From Clostridium sp. (GTDB lineage Bacteria > Bacillota > Clostridia > Clostridiales > Clostridiaceae), in NCBI RefSeq assembly GCF_016650035.1, contig NZ_JAENWM010000011.1:1-63249 (forward strand): 63,249 bases of DNA. Direction: 5' to 3'. The translations under genes were made by a program, and so were the position numbers. The notes under the pieces were generated by a model. The model did not search any database and was not told where the DNA came from. It saw nothing but the letters and a program-made list of their open reading frames with translations. Numbering within the stretch: the stretch's first letter is position 1; each line of letters starts with the position of its first letter. Of this stretch, positions 28,544 to 30,940 are shown one piece after another.

Positions 28544-28963
28544 ATGGATATAGCAGCACTAGCAAAGGTTCAACAACGGGCTGACAAAGTAGAAATGAAA
28601 ACAGCTATGGATACAGGCGAAGAAAATAATAACCCAATAATAGAAAAGACTCATATTGATGCAATAGACTCTAATATCGGACAGAATTTAGACGTAATTG
28701 CAGATAAACAAATGGATAATAAGGAAGAACTACATAAGCAACTACAACAGGAAATAGAATGGGCACAGGAAAAACAGAAGCTGCTTAAACTCAAAGAAGT
28801 AAAGCTGCTACAAATGAGATCGATAGCGGAACAAGGTAAGCAAGTCACTGTTACGCCACTACAACTAAGAAATTTGAATCATAGGTTAGACAATTTAGCA
28901 TCACAGATTAGTGCAATAGATAGCGATAGCAGAAGAACAAAAGACGGACAAAAGTTAGAGTGA
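28544..28963 (+). CDS. Fused YjfB-like and coiled-coil protein
   Basis: A 139-aa protein that joins both parts of the preceding gene pair. Residues 1 to about 50 are YjfB-like (MDIAALAKVQQRADKVEMKT, AMDTGEENN, NIGQNLDVIA) and the rest is the coiled-coil module (KLKEVKLLQMRSIAEQG). The junction passes from NLDV through IADKQMDNKEEL. The MDNKEEL there matches MGEKEEL, the start of the free module, so the fusion point is visible. ATG 28544 has AGGAGGT upstream; a GTG at 28526 would put that site inside the gene. Function is unknown. The setting between flagellin genes suggests motility. Confidence 0.8.
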   Translation: MDIAALAKVQQRADKVEMKTAMDTGEENNNPIIEKTHIDAIDSNIGQNLDVIADKQMDNKEELHKQLQQEIEWAQEKQKLLKLKEVKLLQMRSIAEQGKQVTVTPLQLRNLNHRLDNLASQISAIDSDSRRTKDGQKLE

Positions 28964-29003
28964 GCATTAGTGGCTATTAGATTAGCTGCTGGTGCTTATT
29001 TTT
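28962..29003 (+). repeat. REP-like hairpin, copy 1
   Basis: A stem pairs GAGCATTAGTGGCTA with TAGCTGCTGGTGCTT (several G-U pairs), and a T run follows. It overlaps the stop of the 28544 gene and can serve as its terminator. The sequence belongs to the three-copy family TGAGCATYAGTRGCTAT. It opens the 307-bp gap 28964-29270, which also holds copy 2, a GC palindrome (CACCCCAGGGGTG, 29018-29030), a hairpin (ACTCTA/TAGAGT, 29112-29132) and two GGTGTAAAATTT repeats. Confidence 0.7.
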
Positions 29004-29017
29004 GTTGTGTTGGTAAG

Positions 29018-29030
29018 CACCCCAGGGGTG
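29018..29030. repeat. Perfect GC palindrome
   Basis: CACCCCAGGGGTG is a perfect 6-bp inverted repeat around one base and is very GC-rich for this AT-rich DNA. It lies between REP-like copies 1 and 2. Its last bases run into the first GGTGTAAAATTT direct repeat (29027-29038); the second is at 29209-29220. Confidence 0.55.
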
Positions 29031-29057
29031 TAAAATTTGGAAATTATAGATTATATT

Positions 29058-29099
29058 GAGCATCAGTAGCTATATAAATAGCGCTGGTGCCTATTTTTT
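29058..29099 (+). repeat. REP-like hairpin, copy 2
   Basis: GAGCATCAGTAGCTA pairs with TAGCGCTGGTGCCT with one bulge, and a run of six T follows (29094-29099). It has the same sequence family and orientation as copies 1 and 3, but no gene ends immediately before it, so termination alone does not explain it. Confidence 0.7.
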
Positions 29100-29270
29100 G
29101 TCGTGGTTATGACTCTATTTGATAAGTAGAGTTAAGTCGGTCCTATCATACTAGCTCTTAAAATTGAAAAGGTTATTAAATATATACATACATTCACAAA
29201 TGCTCTGCGGTGTAAAATTTAAAAATCTGGCAATAATCATTAATACCATAATAGGGTGGAGGTTTTGAAT

Positions 29271-29828
29271 ATGCCAACAATAAAAAGAGAATGGTATCCT
29301 GGTGCAAGCTATCATGTTACAGCAAGAGGTAATCACAGAAATGATATATTTAAAGATGAAGAAGATTTTGTATATTATCTAACTTTAATGAAAGAAACCT
29401 TAGATTATTATACCTATGATAAATATGAAATAATAAGTTATTGTTTAATGGATAACCATGTGCACATATTGATTAAAACAGCAGAAAAGCCTTTAGGGCA
29501 ATTTATAGGTAAATTAAGTAGTAAATATGCAAAGTACTATAATAAAAAATATAATTATATTGGACATCTATTTCAAGATAGATATTTTTCGGAAATTATA
29601 GAATCAGATACTCAAATGCTTGAAACAAGCAGGTATATACATTTGAACCCTGTTAGAGCTAAAATGGTGGAAAAGCCAGATATTTACCCATGGAGTAGCT
29701 ACTCAATGTATATAGGTACTGAAAAAGAAAAGTTTGTTTCTAGTAATACAATATTATCTTATTTTAAAAACAACGATAGAGAATTATATAAAAAATATGT
29801 TGAGTATGAAATTACTATAAAAGGATAA
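29271..29828 (+). CDS. REP-associated tyrosine transposase (RAYT, Y1/HUH family)
   Basis: A 185-aa single-domain Y1 transposase of the TnpA-REP type. The start REWYPGASYHVTARGNHR is the RAYT/IS200-like signature. The HUH metal site is MDNHVHIL. The catalytic Tyr is expected in SRYIHLNPVRA, followed by PWSSY. All key residues look intact, so the enzyme could be active. RAYTs are domesticated single-strand transposases that act on palindromic REP sequences and usually occur once per genome without terminal repeats. Three related hairpins flank this gene, two upstream and one downstream. ATG 29271 follows GGTGGAGG. It interrupts the flagellin locus. Confidence 0.9.
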   Translation: MPTIKREWYPGASYHVTARGNHRNDIFKDEEDFVYYLTLMKETLDYYTYDKYEIISYCLMDNHVHILIKTAEKPLGQFIGKLSSKYAKYYNKKYNYIGHLFQDRYFSEIIESDTQMLETSRYIHLNPVRAKMVEKPDIYPWSSYSMYIGTEKEKFVSSNTILSYFKNNDRELYKKYVEYEITIKG

Positions 29829-29853
29829 GAAAAAGCAGTGTTAAAGCATCCCA

Positions 29854-29882
29854 CTAAGAGCAAGCTTAGTCGTTCCTTTTTC
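29854..29882 (+). terminator. Terminator after the RAYT gene
   Basis: ACTAAG (29854-29859) and CTTAGT (29866-29871) form a short stem, with a T run at 29878-29882. A separate GTGACTGTCAC palindrome lies shortly downstream. Confidence 0.5.
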
Positions 29883-30037
29883 ACAATGGTGACTGTCACT
29901 CGTCGAAAATTGTAAATTTGAACAATATAAATATGAATATATATAGACTGATTTTTCAAATGATGCAATAGACATTAAGGTAGGAATTTTGGAAGTTGTG
30001 CAAGAAATATAATTTATTATTTCAAATACAGTTGTGA

Positions 30038-30043
30038 TATAAT
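30038..30043 (+). promoter_or_regulatory. -10 box upstream of the coiled-coil gene
   Basis: A perfect TATAAT lies 28 bp before ATG 30071. No convincing -35 was found. Confidence 0.4.
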
Positions 30044-30070
30044 AAAAGAAAAGATTTAGGTGGTGAATTT

Positions 30071-30373
30071 ATGGAGAAAGAAGTTTTAGATATTCTAAAA
30101 GCAATGCAAAGTGATGTGAAATCAATGCAGGGTGATATGAATTTAATGCATGGAGATATTAATTCAATTAAAACCACACAAAATGAACATACTCAAATAT
30201 TGAGAGCTTTAGGGCATAAGACTGATGTAATATCAGCTGAACAGGAAAATATGAAGCATGATGTTGCAGAAATTAAAGGTGAAGTTAAGAGTATGAGAAA
30301 AGACATGAGTAGTGTGGAAATTATTACAGCAAGTAATTGGTCAGATATTGCTAAATTAAAGGCTATAAAGTAA
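30071..30373 (+). CDS. Coiled-coil protein of unknown function
   Basis: A 100-aa hydrophilic protein dominated by short heptad-like repeats of the type MQSDVKSMQGDM, LMHGDINSIK and IKGEVKSMRKDM. It is probably one long coiled coil, with a conserved-looking centre LRALGHKTDVISAEQENMKH. There is no signal peptide or membrane segment. Similar small coiled-coil proteins are common in clostridia, often without a name. AGGTGG precedes ATG 30071. REP-like copy 3 follows about 70 bp after the stop. Confidence 0.8.
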   Translation: MEKEVLDILKAMQSDVKSMQGDMNLMHGDINSIKTTQNEHTQILRALGHKTDVISAEQENMKHDVAEIKGEVKSMRKDMSSVEIITASNWSDIAKLKAIK

Positions 30374-30445
30374 CTTATATATTGTTAAATGATATTTTTT
30401 AATTAGTAAGTTTAGACCAGAAGAATATATGATAAAATACTGAAA

Positions 30446-30490
30446 TGAGCATCAGTGGCTATATTGAATTAGCTGCTGATGCTCATTTTT
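30446..30490 (+). repeat. REP-like hairpin, copy 3 (best copy)
   Basis: TGAGCATCAGTGGCTA (30446-30461) pairs with TAGCTGCTGATGCTCA (30470-30485) over 16 positions with two G-U pairs, and a T run follows. It is the most regular of the three copies and lies about 620 bp downstream of the RAYT gene, between convergent genes. A terminator role is also possible. Confidence 0.75.
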
Positions 30491-30523: not shown

Positions 30524-30940
30524 TTAAAGAATTATTTCATCTGTAGAGCTAGCATTAAGTCGTTTGATTTCAATATTTAGTGTACTTATTTCATCAGTTG
30601 AAATTTTATTGTTACTTTCTAATAGTTCTATTTTGTTTTTATAAGTTTCATTTTCAACCGTTAAATCAGTATTTTTACTTTTAATGGTTTCAATTTCTTC
30701 TTCAAAATTATGAGCCTCTTTTGTGAGCCTCTTATTACCACGACTTAATACGAATTCCTTTTGTAAACCCAATAAAGTCACAATAATAGCACCTATAATT
30801 GCAGATATAAAGATTACAAGAGACAATGAAACATCAAACTTTGCAGAAAAGAAATTAATTGTAGTAATTGAAGCATTCTGAATACCAAATAATGTTACTA
30901 TAATAGCAAAAATCAAAGAAAGTATAAAGCCAAATCTCAT
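30524..30940 (-). CDS. LapA-domain (DUF1049) membrane protein
   Basis: A 138-aa protein on the minus strand, against the flagellar genes. It has two membrane helices (about residues 4-22 and 40-60: FGFILSLIFAIIVTLFGIQN and LSLVIFISAIIGAIIVTLLG) with the LapA/DUF1049 pattern. A cytoplasmic coiled coil rich in Glu/Lys/Asn (about 70-130) follows. In Gram-negatives LapA works in LPS assembly. In a Firmicute that role cannot apply, so only the domain is assigned. The ribosome site GGGGG and an extended -10 lie upstream. Confidence 0.85.
   Translation of the reverse strand: MRFGFILSLIFAIIVTLFGIQNASITTINFFSAKFDVSLSLVIFISAIIGAIIVTLLGLQKEFVLSRGNKRLTKEAHNFEEEIETIKSKNTDLTVENETYKNKIELLESNNKISTDEISTLNIEIKRLNASSTDEIIL

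Follow-up and report, generated by a model that had tools for sequence, protein, structure and literature searches.

A short RAYT gene in a clostridial flagellin locus, its terminator-like hairpins and a candidate cognate palindrome

RAYT-REP systems have been described mainly in Proteobacteria and Cyanobacteria, and the flagellin locus studied here, in a Clostridium genome, raises the question of which repeated sequence, if any, belongs to a clostridial RAYT. The window (the whole stretch of DNA that was analysed, 63,249 nucleotides) is one entire contig of a 3.97 Mb genome in 167 contigs. A first-pass annotation, made from the sequence alone, had described an intact RAYT-type gene surrounded by three look-alike hairpins in the same orientation, and had proposed that these are the REPs of the RAYT and double as terminators; its alternative was three terminators of common descent. 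The features considered below, with the evidence for each in brackets, are:

28544..28963, + strand: u28544, a small YjfB-related gene of the flagellin locus, with H1 at its end
28957..29002, + strand: H1, a hairpin resembling an intrinsic terminator (terminator scan, fold, same stop-codon offset in nine loci)
29011..29057, + strand: P, the palindrome GCACCCCAGGGGTGTAAA, with its core at 29017-29034 and a conserved 3' tail (profile match of 41 bits, exact pattern match)
29060..29090, + strand: H2, a less stable member of the H family, placed between P and the RAYT gene (fold; model R1, 59.8 bits)
29206..29236, + strand: a possible degenerate P directly upstream of the RAYT gene (weak match, 10 bits, E 0.18)
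29271..29828, + strand: an intact RAYT, a TnpAREP-like HUH (Y1) transposase of 185 aa (Pfam, NCBIfam, motifs, dN/dS)
30071..30373, + strand: coil gene, encoding a small coiled-coil-like protein, with H3 at its end
30442..30489, + strand: H3, a terminator-like hairpin with the coil gene (+) and the LapA gene (-) converging on it (fold, terminator scan)
30524..30940, - strand: LapA-domain gene (Pfam LapA_dom), convergent on H3

The RAYT gene and its relatives

The gene at 29271-29828 proved to be intact, as first described, with an open reading frame whose product matches Pfam Y1_Tnp at 53 bits. Its NCBIfam score against REP_Tyr_transpos (76.1 bits) falls just short of the 80-bit cut-off. The NHVH and RYIHLNP motifs (HUH and Y---NP) are kept and are aligned in the relatives, and dN/dS ranged from 0.10 to 0.18 over ten pairwise comparisons, with dS up to 1.05. 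These data support its reading as a real clostridial RAYT that is under purifying selection. A sequence search of solved structures gave chance-level matches only, the E. coli TnpAREP chain 4er8 being found at E 0.56.

Relatives of about 80% identity stand in the flagellin locus of genomes G004, G008 (C. frigoris), G003 (with one stop) and G016 (C. tagluense, with two stops). The G011 gene is a 48-residue piece at a contig edge (94% identity), the G007 gene is a fragment, and the 80% relative in C. magnum lies outside the flagellin locus. Sequence related to the possible degenerate P at 29206..29236 occupies the same place in G004, G008, G016 and C. magnum. The genome of the window also contains four longer Y1 transposase genes (G000:C143, C155, C52 and C119), of about 291-313 aa and about 35% identical to the window RAYT.

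Of 26 loci with short RAYTs, many of them available with a flank of 1.5 kb only, nine have comM-like sequence after the RAYT and one more has dprA-like sequence only. The order RAYT, then comM-like and dprA-like sequence, was found in L168 (8001-11250), L169, L170, L172, L207, L232 and L233. In 5 of 12 genomes the comM beside the RAYT is a second copy, with about 48% identity to the usual comM. Neither gene adjoins the window RAYT. A combination of RAYT with ComM or DprA was not found among the top-ranked matches of a literature search, which is no proof of absence.

The H hairpins

The arm shared by the three hairpins occurs exactly at 28961, 29057 and 30446, always on the + strand; the placement first given to them thus stands, with two of the coordinates one base too high. 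Allowing up to 3 mismatches, the window holds five matches to the arm, one of which is the second arm of H3; 100 shuffles gave 0.88 on average and never more than 4. H1 and H3 both fold into a 20-bp stem (-25.7 kcal/mol, z -7.2, and -30.8 kcal/mol, z -8.9, respectively, against shuffles). H2 is weaker (-16.6 kcal/mol, z -2.1), with equally good folds in 7 of 200 shuffles. Judged as intrinsic terminators, by a stable stem and a T tract at a gene end, H1 and H3 have these properties and are flagged by the terminator scan, which misses H2. The 5' arm of H1 overlaps the TGA stop codon of the gene 28544-28963, for which the Pfam search of the window proteins matched no family. It is also correct that no gene ends directly before H2: the closest stop codon facing it is that of u28544, on the far side of H1.

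In nine flagellin loci an H hairpin extends over the stop codon of the u28544 orthologue, with an identical offset each time, and three of these loci are in genomes without a short RAYT (G006, G009 and G010). H also stands 3' of LapA genes (G016, G001, G002 and G009) and of coil genes (G002, G008 and G010). In total, 36 of 51 H hairpins are found 3' of an ORF and no more than 100 bp from its end, compared with 0.358 of random non-coding places; three of 54 had been dropped, each being less than 300 bp from the end of its locus. As a separate observation, the LapA gene has a different location in four related genomes (L139, L146, L147 and L152), with an H-type hairpin kept at its end.

A covariance model built from seven copies, with 150 first-look candidates scored per genome so that all counts are lower bounds, found H in at least 15 of the 17 genomes of the genus (E up to 0.1). 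Further copies in the genome of the window, for which the first-pass annotation had suggested a search, do exist: at least four strong ones lie outside the window (on contigs C63, C113, C135 and C5; 74-80 bits). By pairwise alignment, each of these has an extra conserved upstream stretch, about 100-140 bp in total, and this repeat is independent of P. It can be described as a dispersed element, 100 bp or more in length, with two hairpins of which the second is H-type, in four copies with 81-100% identity to the query:

Two-hairpin element, four copies (L032, L031, L033, L034): G000:C63:5570-5676, C113:928-1034, C135:22480-22583 and C5:15910-16012

No Rfam family matched the H and P regions in the window or in L006, L011, L012 and L017, and the same search over L208, L256, L249, L174 and L173 gave one unrelated RAGATH-18 match only.

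If the hairpins were the substrate of the RAYT, as first proposed, H would be expected to follow it. Some observations agree with this. H lies about 75-200 bp upstream of the RAYT, on the same strand, in five flagellin loci (window, G004, G008, G016 and G011), the family has copies elsewhere in the genome, and its copy number tends weakly to be higher where the RAYT is present. However, H is kept at the same stop codons in genomes that have no short RAYT, and it was detected in five of the six flagellin loci lacking the RAYT, against eight of the eight with the RAYT or its remnants (Fisher 0.43; G014, with no flagellin gene on its 4.7-kb contig, and G005 and G015, with no flagellin match at 1e-60, were left out of this table). 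Nor was H found in the vicinity of 12 further short-RAYT loci in the genus (E up to 0.1), in 13 of the 15 RAYT loci from the species scan, or in 13 P-rich regions. The first-pass annotation had itself named similar copy numbers in strains lacking the RAYT as evidence against its model, and this is largely what was seen: in a hand tally of lower bounds (at least 40 bits, one per place), the eight genomes whose flagellin locus contains this RAYT or remnants of it had at least 7, 8, 1, 6, 2, 4, 3 and 4 copies, and the four without a short RAYT (G005, G006, G009 and G010) at least 0, 4, 5 and 2. The means are 4.4 and 2.75 with overlapping ranges, so that there may be a weak tendency with the RAYT. 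A point against the terminator reading is the proximity of H to the RAYT in the five loci, for which it accounts by position alone. On balance we consider it very unlikely that H1-H3 are REPs of this RAYT that also serve as terminators.

Common descent of three terminators, the alternative first offered, fits these observations better, and the three look-alike hairpins are, from their sequence and placement, most likely ordinary transcription stop signals. H1 would end u28544, H3 would serve where the coil and LapA genes converge, and H2 would be a terminator that forms part of the segment from P to the RAYT. A similar arrangement is seen in C. frigoris, with an H between two Ps, 3' of the coil gene. 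The result for the window is that a terminator family can be told apart from a transposase substrate that looks similar by eye.

The palindrome P

Comparison of the flanks of the RAYT relatives led to the recognition of a second sequence, the palindrome P, GCACCCC(A/T)GGGGTGTAAAATTTGG. Written as GCACCCC(A/T)GGGGTGTAAA, it is matched exactly in the window at 29017-29034, between H1 and H2. A literature search with two spellings of the sequence did not find it. As a candidate stable hairpin, P was ruled out, since it folds weakly (5-6 bp) and no better than its shuffles.

In the flagellin loci, tabulated as for H, P was present in eight of the eight with the RAYT or its remnants and in one of the six without (Fisher 0.003), a count that is partly circular because RAYT flanks served to define P and flagellin loci supplied 9 of the 39 model seeds. 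The single RAYT-free locus with P is that of G006, with two weak matches. Across the genus, matches with at most one mismatch number 17, of which 13 are in flagellin loci with this RAYT or a fragment of it, one is in G014 and three are elsewhere. Of 25 short RAYTs, 12 have the P core no more than 450 bp away, with 20 matches in 21.6 kb of such sequence compared with 40 in 276 kb of the same loci; P near the short RAYTs of other species gives independent support for the proposed link between the two. The other 13 short RAYTs have no P nearby, and several of them have other palindromes.

Genome-wide, 11 named relatives had 61, 19, 15, 15, 13, 9, 9, 7, 6, 3 and 0 matches, with 0 or 1 for the control; these numbers include some places twice, because both strands match there. 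The highest number is that of C. tepidiprofundi, whose control count is 0. The genome of the window has one intact P and a single other match, with 3 mismatches (control, 1 match). C. frigoris, G003 and C. tepidiprofundi have P on either side of the RAYT; in the window, where P is upstream only, the profile search detected none 3' of the gene. A different sequence, GGTGACTGTCACTCGTCGAAAA, stands at 29888-29909, about 60 bp 3' of the window RAYT, and matches a palindrome on both sides of a different short RAYT (G007 C2:140571).

The orientation of P follows that of the RAYT. In 14 RAYT loci, P was on the strand of the RAYT in 59 of 63 cases, the significance of which is not to be taken at face value because the loci are partly related. 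All nine matches of C. carboxidivorans lie within about 9 kb around the RAYT and on its strand; those of C. muellerianum are mixed (3 of 6 on the RAYT strand). Within the C. carboxidivorans group of seven genomes, the four with a RAYT match have 9, 13, 15 and 9 matches to P, and the three without have 1, 5 and 1.

P could also be a passive local repeat, with deletions, swaps and duplications between Ps arising through ordinary RecA recombination of direct repeats of 50-290 bp and the RAYT an embedded bystander. C. carboxidivorans has five copies (L208 7132-9897) of a P-headed repeat that measures about 290 bp, long enough for homologous recombination, and a single copy is present in G028 (L256 10035-10313), a genome without a RAYT match. 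Clusters or single copies of P without a RAYT match are likewise seen in G030 and in G029, which has no RAYT match at E 1e-30 and yet has three Ps in 7 kb. Against this, RAYTs with 58-80% identity have P beside them although their chromosomal settings differ, the orientation of P follows theirs in 59 of 63 cases, and the RAYT is under purifying selection. We regard this explanation as unlikely.

Another explanation is that P acts at the transcript level, as a 3' UTR signal selected at gene ends and unrelated to the RAYT. P was at same-strand gene ends in 60 of 139 cases, compared with 0.228 of random non-coding places, at opposite-strand gene ends in 29 and inside ORFs in 11, and three ORFs of C. 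carboxidivorans terminate within P as ...TPGV. P tracks the RAYT locally, however, and a terminator-like hairpin follows P in 22 of 122 cases (0.103 at random places), no more often than at P-free gene ends (92 of 476, 0.193), as counted with a detector that also missed H2. We regard this reading of P as highly improbable. Two related candidates were set aside on the same counts: a universal location of P at gene ends, since no more than 60 of 139 are so placed, though this is above the control, and a unit of P plus terminator, which is not special because the hairpin is no commoner than where P is absent.

Homology between loci also tends to end at P. Between genomes, 39 of 845 homology ends fell at P in both loci, compared with 0.09 expected and a maximum of 2 in 300 shifted controls, a figure that overstates the breakpoint case because P is itself repeated and alignments tend to run to its edge. 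One species pair only, C. carboxidivorans and C. muellerianum, shows a possible cassette exchange at P. The two have a coil block (90%) and a RAYT block (89.5%) in common with different genes between them, a DUF4160/DUF2442 pair in one species and a Big_5 gene in the other. The break on the RAYT side is at the foot of P in both species. On the coil side, one species has the break at P; the other has it about 67 bp away from P, at a place that also shows a weak P-like match on the opposite strand. More generally, the genes near P include nucleotidyltransferase/HepT-like pairs, DUF4160/DUF2442 pairs, an M13 peptidase, and choline-binding, collagen-like, PD-(D/E)XK and coil proteins.

Proposed mechanism and known systems

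Taken together, we are fairly confident, on sequence comparison, that H1-H3 are intrinsic terminators of this Clostridium group and that, unrelated to them, P is the cognate repeat of the RAYT. The motifs of the enzyme, the association of P with it, the orientation of P and the breakpoints are observations; we infer that the RAYT would bind, cleave and transpose P, and that H would have terminator activity. By analogy with known RAYTs, the enzyme would act on single-stranded P: it would bind P folded in single-stranded DNA, nick beside it with formation of a 5'-phosphotyrosine, and join the strands at another P or P-like site. The outcome would be the local spread of P in one orientation and the loss, gain or exchange of the DNA between Ps. 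Such RAYT-P pairs in clostridia would offer compact substrates for asking what RAYTs do.

H1 and H3 resemble intrinsic (rho-independent) terminators in having a 20-bp stem and a T-rich tail at gene ends, and differ from them in that the H stems have sequence in common even where the genes are unrelated; the Rfam search gave no family for them.

P recalls the TIRtrons, in which tyrosine transposases (TIRYT) are flanked by untagged palindromic repeats with GGGGWSAS motifs, as described in PMC3733652. Other clostridial short RAYTs (L083 in G016, L073 in G012 and L084 in G002) have GGGGTCAG...CCCC palindromes on both sides, which fit the GGGGWSAS motif given there. P, in contrast, does not contain that motif, occurs mostly as direct same-strand copies and coincides with breaks in homology.

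A comparison with integrons is suggested by the same-strand palindromic sites with genes between them, the nearby gene for an enzyme acting on single strands, and the toxin-antitoxin-like and surface-protein cargo of the P arrays. It is possible, though we doubt it, that the short clostridial RAYTs form an integron-like system, in which P would be the recombination site, the same-strand P arrays would contain exchangeable genes, and the HUH enzyme would move them via single-stranded DNA. Just as tentatively, the cargo would consist of toxin-antitoxin-like pairs, surface proteins and coil proteins, with a second comM and a dprA beside the enzyme in some species. If true, the flagellin locus of the window would be a worn-down example, and exchange could have helped to reshuffle flagellin-linked genes; if the genes between P sites are truly exchanged, a task familiar from integrons would here be carried out by an HUH enzyme. 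Unlike integrons, which use a tyrosine recombinase, the enzyme here is HUH-Y1; P has given one candidate example of exchange, and most Ps have no adjoining gene end. RAYT or TnpAREP together with integron terms was not found among the top-ranked literature matches, again no proof of absence.

The closest comparison is with the REPtrons. GTAG repeats have been described in Proteobacteria, Cyanobacteria, Chloroflexi and PVC bacteria, besides the untagged TIR flanks, in PMC3733652, the main text of which does not contain the words clostridi or firmicutes. Eight TnpAREP subclasses, five with REP flanks and some without, are described in PMC6006769. According to PMC8266576, REPs with a 5-bp palindrome are known in Marinomonas, and the RAYTs characterised so far act on single-stranded REP, which they cleave and join at CT, for example. 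Unlike the REPs of REPtrons, P does not have GTAG or GTGG at its foot (found in 0 of the 39 seeds when both strands were read), occurs in very few copies in the genome of the window, is clustered near the RAYT and mostly in its orientation, and some of the relatives stand beside comM and dprA. Like the REPtrons of E. coli, Stenotrophomonas and Marinomonas, the clostridial loci combine an HUH-Y1 enzyme with the Y---NP motif and small palindromes beside the transposase gene, on both sides in three relatives and upstream in the window, that lie mostly outside genes and are also found elsewhere in the genome. The idea of a clostridial REPtron survives with P as the repeat and is not supported with H in that role, and the best reading of the locus is a REPtron-like system with a non-GTAG palindrome and H2 as an adjoining terminator. 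A clostridial RAYT branch with its own untagged palindrome would widen what counts as a REP.
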